Both the position numbers and the translations under genes were made by a program. A stretch of DNA of 64,000 nt from Rhodopseudomonas pentothenatexigens. Its GTDB lineage: Bacteria > Pseudomonadota > Alphaproteobacteria > Rhizobiales > Xanthobacteraceae. Shown one piece after another: positions 2,754 through 11,041 of the stretch; position 1 is the stretch's first letter; the number at the start of each line of letters is the position of its first letter. A model generated the notes under the pieces. It was not told where the DNA came from. It did not search any database and saw only the letters and a program-made list of their open reading frames with translations. The stretch lies in assembly GCF_900218015.1 (NCBI RefSeq), contig NZ_UFQQ01000005.1, positions 124,001 through 188,000 of the forward strand. The letters run 5' to 3'.

Positions 2754-3785
2754 ATGCACCCGCTGAACAGCCCGTCCGCTCGACCCCGCCTTGCGTTTGT
2801 GACCGGCGGCTCCGGCTTTGTCGGCGGCCGATTGATTGGACAGTTGCTGGACCACGGTTGGACTGTCCGCGCGCTGGCCCGCAGCGCACCGAGCGAAGCG
2901 CGGGTCCGGGCGCTCGGCGCCGCGCCGGTGAAAGGCGACCTGAATGACGAGCAGGCGCTGCGCGAGGCCATGGCGGGCTGCGAGGTCGTGTTCCACGTTG
3001 CCGCGCACTTCAAGCTCTGGGGCAAAAAGGCGTTGTTCGATCGGGCGAACATCGACGGAACGCGCAATGTCGTGAACGCGGCTGCGGCGACCGCCAGCGT
3101 CCGACGGGTGGTGGCGGTCAGCGCGGCCGCCGTGGTGATGGGCGATCCCGAGCCGATGGTCGATGTCGACGAGACGCTGCCGCTGCAGCGCCGGGCGTTT
3201 GCGCCCTACAGCTCGTCGAAGGGCGAAGCCGAGCGCGTGCTGCTCGGCGCCAACCAGGTCCGCCCCGATTTCGAGACGATCGCGCTTCGGCCGCCCTTCA
3301 TCTGGGGGGATGGCATGCCGACCCTCGATGAGATGGTCGAGACCGTGCACGCCGGTCGCTGGCAATGGGTGGACGGCGGCCGGCAGGCGATGTCGAGCTG
3401 CCACGTCGACAATCTGTGCGAGGCACTGATCCTCGCCGCCGACCATGGCCGCGGCGGTGAGGCGTACTTCGTGGCCGATGCCGAAAACACCACCCTGAAA
3501 GGTTTCATCTCGGCCCTGCTCGCGACGCGCGGCGTCAGCGTGTCCGACAAAGCGGTCCCGTTCGGGCTTGCCTGGACAATGGCCGGTCTGATGGGAGCAG
3601 CGTGGCGTCTGCTGCGGCTCGAGGGCCAGCCGCCGATCACACGCCAGATGCTGCGACTGATCGGCAAGCCTTTCACCATTGCCACCGGCAAGGCCACGAC
3701 CGATCTCGGCTTCGTGCCGCGCACCACGATGAGCATGGGGCTCGCCGCCATGCGGCGCGCATCCCAGCCCGCCACCAGCCCGTAG
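2754..3785 (+). CDS. NAD(P)-dependent epimerase/dehydratase (extended SDR)
   Basis: A 343-residue oxidoreductase of the extended short-chain dehydrogenase superfamily. The nucleotide-binding loop GGSGFVG is at residues 18-24 and the catalytic pair YxxxK at Y152/K156, with S123 in AVSAAAVV as the probable third residue. The pattern resembles dihydroflavonol reductase / 3-beta-hydroxysteroid dehydrogenase-like SDRs; the substrate is unknown. Start ATG 2754 has a near-perfect AAGGAGG site; longer in-frame starts would cross the operator and promoter. Controlled by the divergent TetR repressor, it may act in detoxification or reduction of a small carbonyl compound that is also the inducer (inference). 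Confidence 0.85.
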   Translation: MHPLNSPSARPRLAFVTGGSGFVGGRLIGQLLDHGWTVRALARSAPSEARVRALGAAPVKGDLNDEQALREAMAGCEVVFHVAAHFKLWGKKALFDRANIDGTRNVVNAAAATASVRRVVAVSAAAVVMGDPEPMVDVDETLPLQRRAFAPYSSSKGEAERVLLGANQVRPDFETIALRPPFIWGDGMPTLDEMVETVHAGRWQWVDGGRQAMSSCHVDNLCEALILAADHGRGGEAYFVADAENTTLKGFISALLATRGVSVSDKAVPFGLAWTMAGLMGAAWRLLRLEGQPPITRQMLRLIGKPFTIATGKATTDLGFVPRTTMSMGLAAMRRASQPATSP

Positions 3786-3799
3786 GATTGGTCCGCCGA

Positions 3800-3882
3800 G
3801 CGGATCAGCGCAGCGTCATCCGCCATTGCGTCGAGGCAAGCCCTGCTGCTGTGCGGCGGGTTACGCCTTCGGCTGACCCGCC
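3800..3882. repeat. 83-bp palindromic repeat, copy 2
   Basis: Same element and orientation as 1877-1959, aligning over 83 bases without gaps. Differences cluster in the unpaired linker and at one position of each stem. It begins 15 bases after the SDR stop codon, so the two copies bracket the tetR-SDR pair almost exactly. Confidence 0.85.
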
Positions 3883-3956
3883 CGCCGACTGAACGGATCG
3901 ATCACCGTGCTGCCGCAACCGGCGAAGTCCGCGACGTTCCGCGTCGCCATCTGGAC
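3861..3956 (-). pseudogene. VapC (PIN-domain toxin) C-terminal relic
   Basis: On the minus strand this reads MATRNVADFAGCGSTVIDPF, matching the last strand-helix-strand of PIN-domain VapC toxins (typically A-T-R-N-V-x-D-F ... V-x-x-P-W/F). A TGA stop lies three codons upstream (3957-3959), and the frame ends inside repeat copy 2 (TAA at 3861-3863). Only about 20 residues of the toxin survive and no antitoxin is visible, so it is a dead fragment. Confidence 0.55.
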
Positions 3957-4023
3957 TCACGCGTTGCCTCATCCTTCGAGGCCGCCGCTTTGCGACGGCG
4001 CCGGCGGTCCGGCTGACGCGAAG

Positions 4024-4488
4024 CTACGACCTGAGAAACTGCGCGAACGCCTTCAGCGTGGTTTCCGAGCAGTGGTGCTCCATGCCCTCGGCGTCGGCTT
4101 CCGCGGCTTCAGGCGGGACGCCGACGGCGCGCAAGAGATCGACCACCAGCCGATGGCGGGCGTGCGATCGTTCCGCCAGCGCCTGGCCCTGCTCGGTGAG
4201 AAACACGCCGCGATAGGGGCGCGAGGTCGCCAGCCCGGCCTTCTTCAACCGCGAAATGGTCTTGATGGCGGTGGCGTGCGAGACGCCGAGGCGGCGCGCA
4301 ATGTCGGTCGGCCGTGCTTCGCCGGTGCCGGCCAACAGGTCGGCGATCAGTTCGACATAGTCCTCGAGAATCGCGGTCGACTGCGCCGAGCGGGCCTTGC
4401 CGAAGCGGCGGGCCTGCACCAGCTCGGTCGGCAGATCGGCCGGGGGAGCGTCGTTGCGCTGGGCTTTCCGCGGGACGGCAGGGCTCAT
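4024..4488 (-). CDS. mntR: Manganese-responsive transcriptional regulator MntR (DtxR family)
   Basis: A 154-residue DtxR/MntR protein, the usual length for the proteobacterial form. A winged helix is visible at about residues 47-95 (ARPTDIARRLGVSHATAIKT, then ISRLKKAGL) and the C-terminal metal-binding/dimer part carries the ARHR and EGMEHHCSE segments of the family. With Mn(II) bound it represses manganese uptake. ATG 4488 is preferred because an upstream in-frame start would read into the operator region. It is divergent from the barrel-sitABCD genes, and two near-identical palindromes lie between them. MntR rather than Mur/Fur or Zur is supported by the sequence and by the adjacent Mn-type transporter. 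Confidence 0.9.
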   Translation of the reverse strand: MSPAVPRKAQRNDAPPADLPTELVQARRFGKARSAQSTAILEDYVELIADLLAGTGEARPTDIARRLGVSHATAIKTISRLKKAGLATSRPYRGVFLTEQGQALAERSHARHRLVVDLLRAVGVPPEAAEADAEGMEHHCSETTLKAFAQFLRS

Positions 4489-4546
4489 TGATTCACGCTC
4501 GCGATTGCTGCGATCCGGAAAGCACGAATTCTCGCCGGCGTCAAAA

Positions 4547-4562
4547 TGTAGCCGAGGCAACA
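4547..4562. promoter_or_regulatory. MntR box 1
   Basis: TGTAGCCGAGGCAACA, an imperfect copy of the perfect palindrome 36 bp downstream. It is close to the start of mntR and may mediate autoregulation. Confidence 0.65.
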
Positions 4563-4570
4563 ATCCGGCA

Positions 4571-4598
4571 TTGACAGTTGCGACCCATTCTCTACGAT
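4571..4598 (+). promoter_or_regulatory. Promoter of the manganese uptake operon
   Basis: A consensus TTGACA (4571-4576), 16-bp spacer, then TACGAT (4593-4598). The -10 region abuts and overlaps MntR box 2, so Mn-loaded MntR would exclude RNA polymerase. Confidence 0.6.
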
Positions 4599-4613
4599 GT
4601 AGCCAAGGCTACA
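4598..4613. promoter_or_regulatory. MntR box 2 (perfect palindrome)
   Basis: TGTAGCCAAGGCTACA, a perfect 16-bp palindrome overlapping the promoter's -10 element and start region. Its match to box 1 (14 of 16 bases) and the adjoining mntR gene make it the likely main operator. Confidence 0.75.
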
Positions 4614-4705
4614 ATATCGGGGCCGTGCACCACCGCCGCAAGGCCGGCCGGTGCAGGATGAAACTGCGCGCCGTTTCGGCCGCGCTCGGAAGTAAAGGAA
4701 CGCAG

Positions 4706-5710
4706 GTGAGTACTCGGATCGACGCGGCGAAGCGGTCGCCGGCTCGGACATCGTCATGGGGGCGGATGGTCGTGGCGACCGCATTCGCGGCCGGTGCCGC
4801 AGCGGAGATCTCACCGGCCGCGGCGGAGGACGCGCCGTCCTGGCTGTCGCTGCCCGCGTCGTCGCTGTCGAGCTTCGCGATGCAGCGCCCCGCGACGGTG
4901 CCGGGCACGCATCACGCCGAAGGCGTCGACACCGAGCACATCTTCGGCTTCTCGATGGGCTCCGATATCGGCCAGAAGGGCGAGATCGAGGTCGAGATGG
5001 AGAACGTCGGCGGTTTCGGCAAGCGCGATGGCCGCTACGCCACGCTGGGGACGCTGGCCCAGGTCAAGTACACGCTCACCGATCGGATTCGCATCGCACC
5101 GGGGCTGTCGTTCGGCGGCCAGCGGATCGACGGCGTATTCGGCCACGACGACCGCCATCACCTGACCTTCAACGGCGCTGCGCTCGAGTTCCGCTACAAG
5201 CTGATCGATCGCAAGGCGGCGCCGTTCGGCTTGACGCTGCACGCGCAGCCGAACTGGTCCCGCGTCGACGAGGCGACGGGCGGCCGGATCGAGCAGTACG
5301 GCGGCGAGTTCGCGGCGCTGTTCGACCGCGAGCTGATCGCCGAGCGGTTGTTCGCCGTCTTCAACGTTTGGTACGGCACCGGCGCCACCCGCGAGCGCGC
5401 GACCAATCTGTGGGGCCACGACTCCGAACTGCAGCTGCACGGCGGCCTGTCCTACGCGTTCGCGCCCGGGTTCCTCGCCGGTCTCAATGTTCGCTACCTG
5501 CGCGCCTATGACGGCGGCGGGCTCGACCGTTTCGCCGGCGACGCCGTCTATGTCGGGCCGACCTTCTCCTACAACGTCTCGCCGGCATTCGGCCTGTCGG
5601 GCACCTGGCAGTTCCAGGTCGCGGGCGGCGCCCTGGGCGACCGGCGGCCGCTCAATCTCGACCGGTTCGAGCGCCAGCAGGCGATGCTCCGGCTCAACTG
5701 GCACTTCTAG
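4706..5710 (+). CDS. Outer-membrane beta-barrel protein of the manganese locus
   Basis: About 334 residues from GTG 4706, preferred because AAGGAA (4695-4700) precedes it; an in-frame ATG at 4658 would add 16 residues. A signal peptide is visible (hydrophobic MVVATAFAAGAAA, cleavage likely after SPAAA). The mature part alternates polar and hydrophobic residues with many Tyr/Gly/Phe turns and ends in LRLNWHF, an aromatic C terminus typical of outer-membrane barrels. It also has several His/Asp/Glu-rich loops (FGHDDRHH). It is the first gene behind the MntR-controlled promoter and is followed 60 bases later by the Mn-binding protein gene. The likely role is Mn(II) passage or sensing at the outer membrane, analogous to MnoP of Bradyrhizobium, although I cannot show homology. 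Confidence 0.75.
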   Translation: MSTRIDAAKRSPARTSSWGRMVVATAFAAGAAAEISPAAAEDAPSWLSLPASSLSSFAMQRPATVPGTHHAEGVDTEHIFGFSMGSDIGQKGEIEVEMENVGGFGKRDGRYATLGTLAQVKYTLTDRIRIAPGLSFGGQRIDGVFGHDDRHHLTFNGAALEFRYKLIDRKAAPFGLTLHAQPNWSRVDEATGGRIEQYGGEFAALFDRELIAERLFAVFNVWYGTGATRERATNLWGHDSELQLHGGLSYAFAPGFLAGLNVRYLRAYDGGGLDRFAGDAVYVGPTFSYNVSPAFGLSGTWQFQVAGGALGDRRPLNLDRFERQQAMLRLNWHF

Positions 5711-5770
5711 CGACGGGCGCCGCGACGAACACCCGAGCCACGGCGCGCGACTGCATCAGGATGGATACGG

Positions 5771-6688
5771 ATGAAGCTGAATCGGATTGGCGCCGGCCGG
5801 GTGAGCGGGTTTGTCGCGGCTATCGTTGCGGGCGTGCTGCTCGCCGGCTCGTGCCAGGCGCAGGCCCGCAAGCCGTTCCGCGTGGTGACGACCTTCACGG
5901 TGATCCAGGACATCGCCCAGAATGTCGCCGGCGACAAGGCGATCGTGGAATCGATCACCAAGCCCGGCGCCGAGATCCACGACTACCAGCCGACCCCGCT
6001 CGACATCGTGCGGGCGCAGGCGGCCGATCTCGTGCTGTGGAACGGCTTCAATCTCGAACGCTGGTTCGAGCGGTTCTTCGAGAACGTGAAGGATGTTCCG
6101 AGCGTCGTGGTCACCGAAGGCATCGCGCCGATGGGAATCGCGCAGGGGCCGTACAGCGGCAAGCCCAATCCGCACGCCTGGATGTCGCCGTCCAACGCGC
6201 TGATCTATGTCGAGAACATCCGCAAGGCGCTGGTCAAATACGATCCCGCCAACGCGGCCGCCTACGATCAGAACGCCGCCGACTACGCGGCCAGGATCAA
6301 GGCGCTCGACGAGCCGCTGCGCCGCCGGCTCGCCGCGATCCCCGAAAGCCAGCGCTGGCTGGTGTCGAGCGAAGGCGCGTTCAGCTATCTGACGCGCGAC
6401 TACCAGATGAAGGAGGCGTTCCTCTGGCCGATCAACGCCGACGAGCAGGGCACGCCGCAGCAGGTGCGCAAGGTGATCGACCTCGTGCGCAAGAACAACA
6501 TCCCGGTGGTGTTCAGCGAGAGCACGATCTCGGATCGCGCCGCCAAGCAGGTCGCGCGTGAGAGCGGCGCGCGCTACGGCGGCGTGCTCTATGTCGATTC
6601 GCTCAGCGCCGCGGGCGGTCCGGTGCCGACCTATCTGGACCTGCTCGAGGTGACGGTCGAAACCATCGCCAAGGGGTTCGGGACATGA
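5771..6688 (+). CDS. sitA: Manganese ABC transporter, periplasmic binding protein
   Basis: A 305-residue cluster A-I metal-binding lipoprotein/periplasmic protein of the SitA/MntA/PsaA family. A signal sequence with GSCQA (about residues 26-30) is present. The four expected ligands are all there: H70, H135 (in NPHAWMSP), E201 and D276, the H-H-E-D set of manganese/iron binders. The His-rich loop of zinc-type ZnuA is absent. It binds Mn(II) and delivers it to SitCD. It overlaps sitB by four bases (ATGA), so translation is coupled. Zn or Fe(II) transport cannot be excluded, but the MntR operator argues for Mn. Confidence 0.9.
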
Positions 6689-7581
6689 TCCGGTTCGACC
6701 CCGCCGAGGCGCGGGGCGCAGGCGACACGGTCCCCGGCATCGCGGTGCGCGGTCTCGACGTGACCTATCCGAACGGCTACACGGCGGTGCGCGACGCCTC
6801 GTTCGCGCTCGGCGCCGGGACGATCTGCGCGCTGGTCGGCGTCAACGGCAGCGGCAAGTCGACGATCTTCAAGGCGATCATGGGGTTCGTGCGGCCGTCG
6901 GCCGGCAGCGTGGAGCTGTGCGGGATGCCGGTCGCGCGAGCGCTGAAGCGCAACATCGTCGCCTACGTCCCGCAGAGCGAGGACATCGACTGGAATTTTC
7001 CGGTGCTGGTCGAGACCGTGGTGATGATGGGCCGCTACGGCCACATGAACTTCCTGCGGATTCCGTCGCAGGCCGACCGCCGCGCGGTCGACGAAGCCCT
7101 GGAACGCGTCGGCATGACGGCCTACCGCGACCGCCAGATCGGCGAGCTCAGCGGCGGCCAGAAGAAGCGAGTGTTTCTCGCCCGCGCGCTGGCGCAGGGC
7201 GGGCGGATCGTGCTGCTCGACGAACCGTTCACCGGCGTCGACGTCAAGACCGAAACCGCGATCATCGATCTGCTGCGCGAGCTGCGCGACGCCGGCCAGC
7301 TGATCCTGGTCTCGACCCACGATCTCGGCAGCGTTCCGCAGTTCTGCGACCAGGTCGTGCTCGTCAACCGCACCGTGCTGGCGGCCGGGCCGACCGCAGA
7401 GACCTTCACCCAGCGCAATCTCGAACTCGCCTTCGGCGGCGTGCTGCGCAACTTCCAGCTCGGCGGCGCCGACCTGCACAGCGACGACGATCAGCGCCGG
7501 CTGACGGTGATCACCGACGACGAACGGCCGCTGGTGTTCTACGACGCCCGGCCCGACCAGCGGCAGGATCAGGAGAGCTGA
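6685..7581 (+). CDS. sitB: Manganese ABC transporter, ATP-binding protein
   Basis: A 298-residue ABC ATPase: Walker [10 protein letters not shown] at 52-60, signature LSGGQ at 155-159, Walker B IVLLDE at 175-180 and the H-loop in STHDL. The C-terminal tail of about 30 residues beyond the ATPase core is acidic. It energises the SitC/SitD membrane pair. Its start overlaps the sitA stop, and sitC begins one base after its own stop, giving a tight operon. Confidence 0.92.
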
Positions 7582-7582
7582 G

Positions 7583-8458
7583 ATGGCCGAGGGGTCGCTG
7601 CTCGCCGAACTGCTGGTGCCGTTCGCCTACGGCTACATGCTGAAGGCGATGTGGGTGAGCGCCCTGGTCGGCGGCGTGTGCGCCTTCCTGTCGGCCTATC
7701 TGATGCTGAAGGGCTGGTCGCTGATGGGCGACGCCCTCGGGCACGCGATCGTTCCGGGCGTCGCCGCCGCCTACATCCTCGGGGCGCCGTTCGCGCTCGG
7801 CGCGTTCTTCGCCGGTATCCTGGCGGCGGCCGGCATGCAGTTCGTCAAGCTGAAGTCGCGGTTGCGCGAGGACGCGGTGATCGGGCTGGTATTCACCACG
7901 TTGTTCGCGCTCGGGCTGCTGATGGCCTCGATCTGGCCGATGTCGGTGAGCGTGCAGACCATCGTGCTCGGCAACATCCTGGCGATCTCCGATGCCGACG
8001 TCGTCCAGGTCGCGATCATCTCCGCGGTGTCGCTGGCGATTCTGGCGCTGAAGTGGAAGGACCTGATGGTGACGTTCTTCGACGAGAGCCACGCCCGCAG
8101 CATCGGGCTCGATCCGCGGCGGCTCAAGATCGTGTTCTTCACCCTGCTCAGCGCCTGCACGGTCGCCGCGCTGCAGACGGTCGGCGCCTGCCTGGTGATC
8201 GCGCTGGTGGTGACGCCCGGCGCCACCGCCTATCTGCTCACCGACCGGTTCGGCCGGTTGATCCTGATCAGCGTCGCGCTCGGCGCCGTCACCAGCTTCG
8301 TCGGTGCTTATCTCAGCTATTTTCTCGACGGTGCCACCGGCGGCGTGATCGTCACGCTGCAGACCCTGCTGTTTCTGGTCGCGTTCTACTTCGCGCCGAA
8401 GCACGGCGTGATCGCGGCGCGCCGGCGGCGGCACGCGGCGGCGGGAGTGACGCCGTGA
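7583..8458 (+). CDS. sitC: Manganese ABC transporter, permease
   Basis: A 291-residue integral membrane protein of the ABC-3 family with seven to nine hydrophobic segments. It carries the family's LKGWSLMGDALGHAIVPG region near the N terminus and the conserved TPGATAYLLTDRF segment near residue 215. It pairs with the paralogous SitD to form the Mn(II) channel. Its TGA stop overlaps the GTG start of sitD (8455). Confidence 0.92.
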   Translation: MAEGSLLAELLVPFAYGYMLKAMWVSALVGGVCAFLSAYLMLKGWSLMGDALGHAIVPGVAAAYILGAPFALGAFFAGILAAAGMQFVKLKSRLREDAVIGLVFTTLFALGLLMASIWPMSVSVQTIVLGNILAISDADVVQVAIISAVSLAILALKWKDLMVTFFDESHARSIGLDPRRLKIVFFTLLSACTVAALQTVGACLVIALVVTPGATAYLLTDRFGRLILISVALGAVTSFVGAYLSYFLDGATGGVIVTLQTLLFLVAFYFAPKHGVIAARRRRHAAAGVTP

Positions 8459-9327
8459 GCGAGGTCGCCGACTGGATCACCGGACCGCTGGCCTATCCGT
8501 TCATGCAGCGGGCGCTGGTCGCGTCCGTGATGGTGGCGGCGGTCTGCGCGGTGCTGTCCTGCTATCTGGTGCTGAAGGGCTGGTCGCTGATGGGCGACGC
8601 TGTCTCGCACGCGGTGCTGCCCGGCATCGTGGTCGCCTATGTGCTGAACCTGCCGCTGGCGGCCGGGGCGTTCGTGGCCGGCCTGTCCTGCGCGGTGGTC
8701 ACCGGCTATCTGAAGGAGAACAGCCGGGTGAAGGAGGACACGGTGATGGGCATCGTGTTTTCCGGGATGTTCGGCTTCGGCCTGGTGCTGTTCACCAGGA
8801 TCGAGACCGACCAGCACCTCAACCACATCCTGTTCGGCAACGTGCTCGGCGTCACGCCGCGCGACCTGATCGAAATCGCGGTCGTCGCCGGTGGGACGCT
8901 GCTGGCGGTGCTGCTCAAACGCCGCGACCTCTTGCTGTATTGCTTCGACCCCCACCACGCCCGATCCATCGGCCTGCCGGTGACGGCGCTGCACTACGGA
9001 CTGCTGGTGCTGCTGGCGTTGACCATCGTCGCGTCGTTGAAAGCGGTCGGCATCATCCTGGTGGTCGCGATGCTGATCGCGCCCGGCGCCACCGCCTATC
9101 TGCTCACCGACAGCTTCGAGCGGATGCTGCTCGTCGCCGTGGCGGTCGCCGCCGGCTCGGCCGCGATCGGCACGCTCGTCAGCTTCCACATCGACGGCGC
9201 CACGGGCGCCTGCATCGTGCTGACCCAGGCGCTGGTGTTCTGCGCGGCGTTCCTGTTCGCGCCGAAGCGTGGATTGCTGCGCACCAACCGGGCCGCGGCA
9301 AGGGACCAGTCCGAGCCGGCGGGGTGA
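8455..9327 (+). CDS. sitD: Manganese ABC transporter, permease
   Basis: A 290-residue ABC-3 permease, clearly paralogous to SitC (LKGWSLMGDAVSHAVLPG and APGATAYLLTDSF align with its partner). The start is GTG 8455, which overlaps the sitC stop (GTGA) and gives the expected MQRALVASVMVAAV membrane segment. It is the last gene of the Mn operon; the next gene is convergent, ending 27 bases away. Confidence 0.92.
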   Translation: MSEVADWITGPLAYPFMQRALVASVMVAAVCAVLSCYLVLKGWSLMGDAVSHAVLPGIVVAYVLNLPLAAGAFVAGLSCAVVTGYLKENSRVKEDTVMGIVFSGMFGFGLVLFTRIETDQHLNHILFGNVLGVTPRDLIEIAVVAGGTLLAVLLKRRDLLLYCFDPHHARSIGLPVTALHYGLLVLLALTIVASLKAVGIILVVAMLIAPGATAYLLTDSFERMLLVAVAVAAGSAAIGTLVSFHIDGATGACIVLTQALVFCAAFLFAPKRGLLRTNRAAARDQSEPAG

Positions 9328-9353
9328 GGTGTGCGATCATCCGGCCGCCTGCG

Positions 9354-10136
9354 CTACAGCGCTTCGTATTGCTGATAGATCGCGCGGGCGATGCCGAGCA
9401 GGTGATCGCGGTCGGTCTGCGCCACCACGGCGTAGGACAGCTGGGCATCGATCCAGGAGAATGCCGCCAATTCGCCGGTGCGTTCGAACCGGAAGGCGCT
9501 CGGCTCGGCGTCGCCGCCCGGCCGCACATACACCGTGACGCGGCGGCCCTGCTGGTCCTCGTACATGAACTGCGCCGCCGGGCCGTTGGTGGCCGGCAGC
9601 AGCCGGCCGCCGATCAGCTTCAGCCCGAGCGCGTCGAGCTTCGGCGCTGTCAGTTTTCGGCCGAGCCGGCGCGACAGCCATTGCACCAGATGCGCTTCCT
9701 GGTCGGCCGCGACCTCGACCGGATGCGCGACCTCGACCGCATAGGTCCGCCACGCCACCATCGCGGCGTCGGCGACCGGGGCGGCCGCGACGACCGTGGG
9801 CGCGCGGTGCCAGCGCTCGGACGCCAGCCAGCCGCCGGCGCCGCCGATCACCAGGCACGCCAGCGCCGCCGCCACGGCGCCGAACCGCTGGCCGATCCAG
9901 GCGCGGCGCTCGCCGCGCAGATGCGCGATGCGGAGCCGTGCCGGGATCGGCTCGGAGGCCACCGCCGACAGCCGGGCGCGCAGATCGTCGCGATCGGCGA
10001 TCTGCCCCGCGATGCGGCGGGCGGCCTCGGCGTCGGACTCCAGATAGGTCTCGACCTCGGCGCGCCGCGCGGCATCGAGCCGGCCGTCGACATAGGCCTG
10101 CAGATCGTCCTCGCTGAGAGGGCGACGGACGGTCAT
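9354..10136 (-). CDS. Membrane-spanning anti-sigma factor
   Basis: A 260-residue protein with an N-terminal cytosolic helix bundle (LSEDDLQAYVDGRLDAARR, a pattern common in anti-sigma factors) lacking the HxxxCxxC zinc motif. One transmembrane segment at about residues 85-105 (VAAALACLVIGGAGG) precedes a periplasmic domain of about 150 residues. It begins at ATG 10136, overlapping the sigma gene stop by four bases, so the two products are made in a coupled ratio. It should hold the ECF sigma factor inactive at the membrane until a periplasmic signal arrives. The signal is unknown. Confidence 0.85.
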   Translation of the reverse strand: MTVRRPLSEDDLQAYVDGRLDAARRAEVETYLESDAEAARRIAGQIADRDDLRARLSAVASEPIPARLRIAHLRGERRAWIGQRFGAVAAALACLVIGGAGGWLASERWHRAPTVVAAAPVADAAMVAWRTYAVEVAHPVEVAADQEAHLVQWLSRRLGRKLTAPKLDALGLKLIGGRLLPATNGPAAQFMYEDQQGRRVTVYVRPGGDAEPSAFRFERTGELAAFSWIDAQLSYAVVAQTDRDHLLGIARAIYQQYEAL

Positions 10137-10642
10137 TTCACTCTCCTCAACACGGTGGTGCGGCCGGCCTCGACGCTGTGGCGCAGCGCCTCGCGGGCGC
10201 GGCTGAGCCGCGACATGATGGTGCCGACCGGTACGTCGAACACCCGCGCGGCCTGCTCGTAGCTCATTTCCTCGACGCCGATCAGCAGCAGCAGCGAGCG
10301 CTGATCTTCCGGCAGATCGTCGAGCCGCGCCAGCGCGTCGCGGGCGATCAGGCTGCGCTCCGGGCCGGCGGCGCTGTCGGGAATCGGGCCGCGCGAGTCG
10401 AGATCGACCGCGTGGCCGCGCCGAACCGCGCGGCGACGCTGATCGAGATACACATTGCGTTCGATCGCAAACAGCCAGGCGCGCAGGTCGCCGCCCGGCC
10501 GCCGCAGCCGCCAGCGCGTCAGCGCCCGCTCCAGCGTGCTCTGGACGAGATCGTCCGCAGCGTCGCGATCGTGCAGCAGCGCCCGCGCGTAGCGGCGCAG
10601 GCTTGGTATCAGCGGCTCGATCTCGGCGGCGATCTCGTCCAA
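10133..10642 (-). CDS. ECF-family RNA polymerase sigma factor
   Basis: A 169-residue sigma-70 protein reduced to regions 2 and 4, as in all ECF factors. Region 2 contains DRDAADDLVQSTLERAL (residues 25-41) and RAWLFAIERNVYLD; region 4 contains LPEDQRSLLLLIGVEEMSYE and the helix-turn-helix ARVFDVPVGTIMSRLSRARE. It directs transcription of a small regulon including, probably, its own operon, because an ECF-like promoter lies upstream of the first gene (11077-11103). Only 15 bases separate it from the upstream secreted-protein gene. Confidence 0.92.
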   Translation of the reverse strand: MDEIAAEIEPLIPSLRRYARALLHDRDAADDLVQSTLERALTRWRLRRPGGDLRAWLFAIERNVYLDQRRRAVRRGHAVDLDSRGPIPDSAAGPERSLIARDALARLDDLPEDQRSLLLLIGVEEMSYEQAARVFDVPVGTIMSRLSRAREALRHSVEAGRTTVLRRVK

Positions 10643-10657
10643 AGCGGTCTCGTCGGA

Positions 10658-11041
10658 TCAGGGCTTGGCGATGTGCCAGGCGCCGTTGAGGAAACCGTCG
10701 CCGGTGGTGTCGCCCGGCTTGGTGTCCTTGGTCCAGGCATACAGCGGCTTGCCCTTGTAGGCCCACTGCTTGGCGCCGTCGTCGCGGGTGATCACGGTCC
10801 AGTCGCCGGAGGCCTGCGCGCTCGCCGCGGCGATCAGCGGCGGCCAGTTGGTGGCGCAGGGGCCGTTGCAGGCCGACTTGCCGCCGGCGTCCTTGTCGAA
10901 GGTGTAGAGCGTCATGCCCTTGGCGTCGACCAGCGCCTTGCCTTTGGCGGTGTCGGCGACCTTGGCCGGGGCGGCGGCCTGGGCGAACGCCGCGGTGGCG
11001 GCGAGCACGAGAGCGGATGCGAGCGTGAGCGTGCGGATCAT
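10658..11041 (-). CDS. Small secreted protein of the COG4315 / Lipoprotein_15 family
   Basis: A 127-residue protein with a signal peptide ending AAFA-QA (about residue 21). The mature part has the two repeats of this family: VDAKGMTLYTFDKD with CNGPCATNWPPL, and AYKGKPLYAWTKD with the GDTTGDG loop. The biochemical role of the family is unknown, although members often lie beside ECF sigma factors or redox proteins. It is the first gene of the sigma/anti-sigma operon, after an AAGGAGG ribosome site (in 11046-11053), and could be the stress-exposed periplasmic component of the response. Confidence 0.85.
   Translation of the reverse strand: MIRTLTLASALVLAATAAFAQAAAPAKVADTAKGKALVDAKGMTLYTFDKDAGGKSACNGPCATNWPPLIAAASAQASGDWTVITRDDGAKQWAYKGKPLYAWTKDTKPGDTTGDGFLNGAWHIAKP

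Follow-up and report, generated by a model that had tools for sequence, protein, structure and literature searches.

Here we propose that the product of the gene directly upstream of sitABCD in Rhodopseudomonas pentothenatexigens is probably an outer-membrane beta-barrel which serves as a dedicated manganese entry channel, is repressed by MntR and is made together with the SitABCD importer. The gene lies in a 64,000-nucleotide stretch of contig NZ_UFQQ01000005.1 (positions 124,001 to 188,000), which is referred to below as the window. According to the mechanism that we suggest, Mn-bound MntR would occupy both of its predicted boxes at 4547-4613 and block the promoter when manganese is plentiful, and scarcity of manganese would free the boxes and allow the barrel and SitABCD to be made together, presumably from one transcript. 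Manganese, as Mn2+ or as a small Mn complex, would then cross the outer membrane via the barrel and be caught by SitA. Small ions are commonly held to cross the outer membrane through general porins, and MnoP is, to our knowledge, the one dedicated and apparently plug-free manganese channel known. If our proposal is correct, a second, unrelated family, in which all 28 members of one clade have a predicted manganese-type box of one of two kinds, would suggest that scarce divalent metals face a genuine barrier at the outer membrane and that selective channels for such ions have more than one origin.

The barrel gene occupies 4706-5710 on the forward strand, within an open frame of 4397-5710, and encodes a precursor of 334 aa with a mature part of about 294 aa. 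Its best start is the GTG at 4706, which is preceded by AAAGGA ending six bases upstream; an ATG at 4766 represents a possible later start. A signal peptide was recognized by eye at 4706-4825 (+) with cleavage placed after residue 40, and the precursor is apparently secreted. The nearest named relative of the protein is found in R. palustris XCP (94% identical). Divergently oriented is mntR (4024-4488, reverse strand), encoding a DtxR-family manganese regulator of 154 aa, the product of which scores 205.9 bits against the NCBIfam MntR equivalog PRK11050 (cut-off 153) and exceeds the cut-offs of both Pfam iron-dependent-repressor domain models, PF01325 and PF02742. Downstream, on the same strand as the barrel gene, follow sitA (5771-6688) for the metal-binding protein of an ABC importer, with 294 bits to the Pfam ZnuA family and every NCBIfam model under cut-off; sitB (6685-7581) for an ATPase that reaches 408.5 bits with the NCBIfam manganese/iron ABC ATPase model PRK15056 (cut-off 393); and the permease genes sitC (7583-8458) and sitD (8455-9327), both of which match metal ABC permease models under cut-off. 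These coordinates and scores confirm what the initial annotation had read from the locus, namely that a gene for a Phe-ending product is the first behind the mntR-divergent promoter and directly precedes sitABCD, and they support its assignment of mntR. An Rfam scan of positions 3500-10000 of the window gave no match. Further downstream, a frame at 10133-11041 (reverse strand), which we take to resemble an ECF sigma factor gene, lies beside a gene for a small secreted protein resembling COG4315 lipoproteins.

Two MntR-type boxes lie 51 bases apart in the divergent region between mntR and the barrel gene. The upstream box, TGTAGCCGAGGCAACA (4547-4562), has one mismatch and the downstream box, TGTAGCCAAGGCTACA (4598-4613), is a perfect 7-2-7 inverted repeat. 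Because a sigma-70-like promoter, TTGACA-16-TACGAT, is found at 4571-4598 (+; one found, 0.1 expected), the perfect box overlaps the -10 hexamer by one base, starting at its final base. The two palindromes noted at the outset, one of them perfect and overlapping the -10 box, are thus borne out, with an overlap of a single base. Counted within the window alone, MntR-type boxes are not striking: with up to 3 mismatches allowed, the pattern has 3 matches against 1.07 expected, and at least 3 were obtained in 10 of 100 shuffles. Genome-wide, TGTAGCNNNNGCTACA with zero mismatches occurs once, in the barrel promoter; when up to 2 mismatches are allowed, 84 sites match, fewer than the 833 of the backwards control. 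Two further sites that match the MntR pattern with one mismatch (L128 and L129) are inside long open frames and were discarded. Both boxes precede the barrel gene in all five other loci with the same gene order (L049, L050, L051, L053 and L054), and the upstream box differs from TGTAGCNNNNGCTACA by at most one base in every one of these mntR-linked loci. Such conservation of predicted boxes across loci is stronger evidence than the counts within the window. The core of the perfect box in the window, TAGCCAAGGCTA, differs by one base, over a 12-base core, from TAGCAAAGGCTA before mntH of E. coli (NC_000913), which we take to be the MntR box of that gene; a second, poorer core match within the 6-kb E. 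coli stretch lies inside mntH itself.

An outer-membrane beta-barrel fold is likely for the mature protein, although unproven. The C-terminal Phe is invariant in the 64 aligned members of the family. With Pfam, the window protein passes the cut-off of PF13557 (Phenol_MetA_deg; 24.4-24.8 bits, cut-off 22) in one short match of about 70 residues, its match to PF13505 is under cut-off, and the paralogue from the same genome scores 17.3 bits with PF13557. At E 0.01, 23 of the 64 aligned members match PF13557 and 20 match PF20367 (DUF6662), and OMP_b-brl, FadL/TodX and MipA are each matched by one member. In a profile comparison of the family with three PF13557 members from one Bradyrhizobium genome, a weak test on a small alignment, no similarity was found (probability 0.3%). 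An AlphaFold2 model built from 7 sequences was of low confidence (pLDDT 43.1, pTM 0.41) and contained 14 strands of at least 3 residues, one short helix and an unstructured region at residues 1-54. When this poor model was used for a Foldseek search, the 50 best of 621 rows were outer-membrane barrels or complexes containing one, among them V. cholerae OmpT, chitoporin, DcaP, CymA and PorB. TM-scores in these 50 of 621 rows did not exceed 0.41 and rmsd values were 8-21 Å, and we read the modelled structure as barrel-like, no further. Sequence and profile searches for a relative of solved structure found none.

The family is widespread close to the source organism and rare further afield. In a protein search that scored at most the best 5 candidates per genome, 195 of 391 genomes of the taxonomic family had a match; at the level of the class, 7 of 289 genomes matched, including the source genome and three marginal cases, and a profile search at E 1e-15 matched 6 of 385. 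In a tree of 98 rows, the window protein falls into a clade of 28 rows with support 100/100, which comprises 16 rows from 14 of the 16 Rhodopseudomonas genomes and 12 rows from g248, the genus of Bradyrhizobium; genomes G413 and G487 contribute two clade copies each. The rows come mostly from the top of a ranked list of the family and therefore represent no random sample of it. Together with 16 barrels added later, 4 of them distant, these 98 make up the 114 barrels examined below. Downstream of the barrel gene in ten loci (L052 and L055-L063) is a gene for a conserved membrane protein, c17 (DUF6057 under cut-off), and in 9 of these ten another protein, c21, for which Pfam gave no match, is also encoded 3' of the barrel. 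The source genome encodes a paralogue on another contig (C40; L003:7366-8373, reverse strand) that is 54% identical to the window barrel and is divergent from a ferritin-like (Dps-type) gene, cluster c15.

MnoP of Bradyrhizobium is controlled by Mur, and we derived a pattern for a second kind of box from a genome of that genus (G655; 9,105,828 bases), in which mntH is preceded by TTGCAAATGAGTTGCAA and a gene at 87,667-89,694 by TTGCGAATTAATCGCAA. From its position and its box, we take the latter gene to be mnoP (blr0095); the box before both genes is named Mur-type here, and Mur would be the regulator that binds it. The pattern was first drawn from these two promoters as TTGCRAN5TYGCAA and was widened once, to WTGCRAN5TYGCAW, after mntH of the source genome had been seen. 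Ten perfect Mur-type sites occur in the 5.38 Mb of the source genome, one of them before its mntH, and the backwards control gave none; the same genome encodes four Fur-family proteins. The perfect Mur-type site of L192 lies before a frame resembling a small multidrug-resistance protein, and sites such as this one may be further targets or chance occurrences. Of 8 mnoP orthologues scanned, 7 are preceded by a Mur-type box, i.e. 6 of 7 besides the gene from which the motif was taken, which is a weak check because the others are 93-97% identical to this source.

With both patterns applied, a manganese-type box is predicted in all 28 promoters of the clade. Six rows have two MntR-type boxes each and lie beside MntR and SitA, and the 22 remaining rows, which are without mntR or sit neighbours, all have a Mur-type box at no more than 1 mismatch. 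With the first form of the Mur-type pattern and up to 2 mismatches allowed, this box is found in 17 of the 22, and one of the MntR-type rows, L051, has a one-mismatch Mur-type match as well. Among the other 86 barrels, the Mur-type box occurs in 14 and the MntR-type box in none, so that 72 of 114 barrels are without a box of either kind; random windows from the same loci contained a Mur-type box in 17 of 1120 cases and an MntR-type box in 1 of 1120. In the clade of the paralogue, 13 of 15 rows are without both boxes and two have a one-mismatch Mur-type match (L089:4590 and L090:4130). The promoters of this clade contain other conserved blocks, common to the 13 aligned, and GGTAACTAACTACC is found exactly in 5 of them. 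Placed on the tree, the box kinds need two changes at best fit, and a single origin for the MntR state is compatible with the data (p-AU 0.22). Since each of the 28 clade promoters carries a predicted box of one type or the other, the same barrel gene appears to have been passed between two manganese regulators.

The expectation that homologues would always neighbour manganese genes did not hold for the family as a whole. Within 1 kb, an uptake-type neighbour is present for 20 of 114 barrels and none for 94, of which 22 are clade members with a Mur-type box; the neighbour link is therefore a trait of certain branches and not of the whole family. MntR and SitA adjoin 6 barrels, the only ones of the 114 that lie beside MntR. 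For 3 further barrels the neighbour is sitC or sitD, the barrel gene standing behind the operon in an order unlike that of the window. An MnoP-like porin adjoins 6 barrels, mntH one (upstream, on the same strand), and a SitA/ZnuA-type protein 4, three of which also have a cation-diffusion (CDF) exporter; the one CDF exporter that was scanned has MntE as its best model (431 bits, cut-off 500). In L094, L096 and L102 the barrel gene and a gene for an MnoP-like protein (64, 63 and 51% identity, respectively, with the presumed MnoP) diverge from a region with two perfect Mur-type boxes, spaced 25 bases apart, and the start of one of these boxes in L096 coincides with that of the longest open frame. 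RND exporters are found near 6 of 114 barrels, and no uptake-type gene lies within 1 kb of the four distant relatives from other families (L167-L170). Two barrels from separate branches lie on either side of a czcBA-like pair, recognized by eye, in L089 and L090, and L089 also contains a DUF3240 protein. Four barrels have very His-rich N-termini (L141:7188-8201, L147:4926-5975, L146:536-1603 and L144:7472-8494); those of L141 and L147 adjoin a CDF exporter and a SitA-like protein, that of L146 adjoins a TonB-dependent receptor, and a Zur-like palindrome is present in L144. Possibly, these His-rich barrels constitute a zinc branch.

Such uneven linkage would also fit a manganese-regulated outer-membrane protein that is not itself the path of manganese, and instead serves as an envelope or stress protein or admits some other solute that the cell requires under manganese shortage. 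Regulation tells when a protein is made and not what its cargo is, and the paralogue beside the Dps-type gene is under a different promoter. In several lineages, however, the neighbours are uptake genes of the manganese kind, and the precedent, the presumed MnoP, has the same kind of box, and we consider this explanation unlikely, although it is the strongest competitor of a manganese channel.

Conserved residues of the barrel bear on its selectivity. The DTEH motif at mature residues 35-38 (4928-4939, +) is invariant in an alignment of 15 clade rows, which also contains the alternating glutamates of EIEVEMEN at mature residues 53-60 (4982-5005, +). E55, E57 and E59 are kept in 28 of 28 clade rows and alternate with hydrophobic residues, like one face of a strand, and the glutamate side would be predicted to face the barrel lumen. 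Ten acidic or His residues (D35, E37, H38, D47, E55, E57, E59, D148, D167 and E169) each show at least 96% conservation across the 28 rows. Their conservation is just as high in the 15 rows of the paralogue clade, 13 promoters of which are without boxes, and they therefore would suit cations in general; residues specific to the clade are few (Q141, R174, T185, T188, Y249, Q262 and H293).

A broad divalent-cation channel for Mn, Zn, Fe and Co, not selective for manganese, would fit acidic residues that are common to branches without a manganese-type box. It would also fit the RND exporters near six barrels, a SitA-type protein that is nearest to the AztC and MntC models (under cut-off), the hint at zinc given in some branches by His-rich N-termini, and three relatives with a Zur-like palindrome that departs by no more than 2 mismatches from a pattern that we presume to be that of Zur. 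In the clade of the window protein, by contrast, a Zur-like match is present in 0 of 28 rows and a manganese-type box in all, which makes a broad channel somewhat less probable still than a manganese-regulated protein with another cargo. Very improbable is the reading that an unrelated membrane-protein gene came to lie between mntR and sitABCD by chance, since gene order and box pair are kept in 6 loci, window included, and the Mur-type box in all 22 other clade members, even though most of the wider family is without a metal-uptake neighbour.

We return to the dedicated manganese channel as the preferred reading. In its widest form, for which we see about even chances, this reading would make the barrels a second, non-homologous family of dedicated manganese channels that has switched between Mur and MntR, is elsewhere arranged back-to-back with MnoP-like genes across shared boxes, and maybe includes branches that have turned to zinc.

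An open-access literature search found no report of this barrel, an earlier mention being possible, and the closest comparison is with MnoP of Bradyrhizobium, identified as blr0095 (PMC6011978) and described as importing Mn in proteoliposomes and in vivo (PMC9334652). Like MnoP, the window protein is of predicted outer-membrane type, has a manganese-type box before its gene and is one in which no TonB plug was found, and it would thus be a functional analogue. The two differ in control, which is by Mur for MnoP and is predicted to be by MntR for the window barrel, and in domain content: the presumed MnoP has 675 aa and matches OprB (232 bits) and OMP_b-brl (64 bits), whereas the window protein matches PF13557 only. 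By hhalign, no homology between the window family and the presumed MnoP was found (probability 0.6%, E 0.1, 23 columns), which supports, against this presumed MnoP, the earlier suggestion of a distinct family. Judged by sequence, the barrel resembles MnoP in its setting and is no member of the MnoP family. At least 10 of the 16 genomes in the genus, with 3 candidates scored in each, contain a match to MnoP at E <1e-290, and the barrel therefore does not simply replace MnoP, an explanation that we rejected; three genomes (G458, G377 and G487) have a close MnoP match and an MntR-type barrel together. In the source genome, the best MnoP-like protein among 14 candidates scored is 41% identical, and a scan before its gene found no box of either kind.

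Among known protein families, PF13557 is one whose cut-off the window protein passes, although profile similarity to the three members compared was not found, and PF20367 (DUF6662), a family of unknown function whose name was not found in the open-access literature searched, matches 20 of 64 aligned members and not the window protein at E 0.01. MnoT and OmpU are further outer-membrane proteins linked to manganese uptake (PMC9334652); they are set beside the window barrel by their description there, MnoT as TonB-dependent and OmpU as a Vibrio porin (PMC9334652). Finally, the MntR/mntH operator of E. coli shares with the window the same regulator equivalog and a near-equal box core and differs in the outer bases, and the window has two boxes, with a predicted outer-membrane protein encoded by the first target gene.
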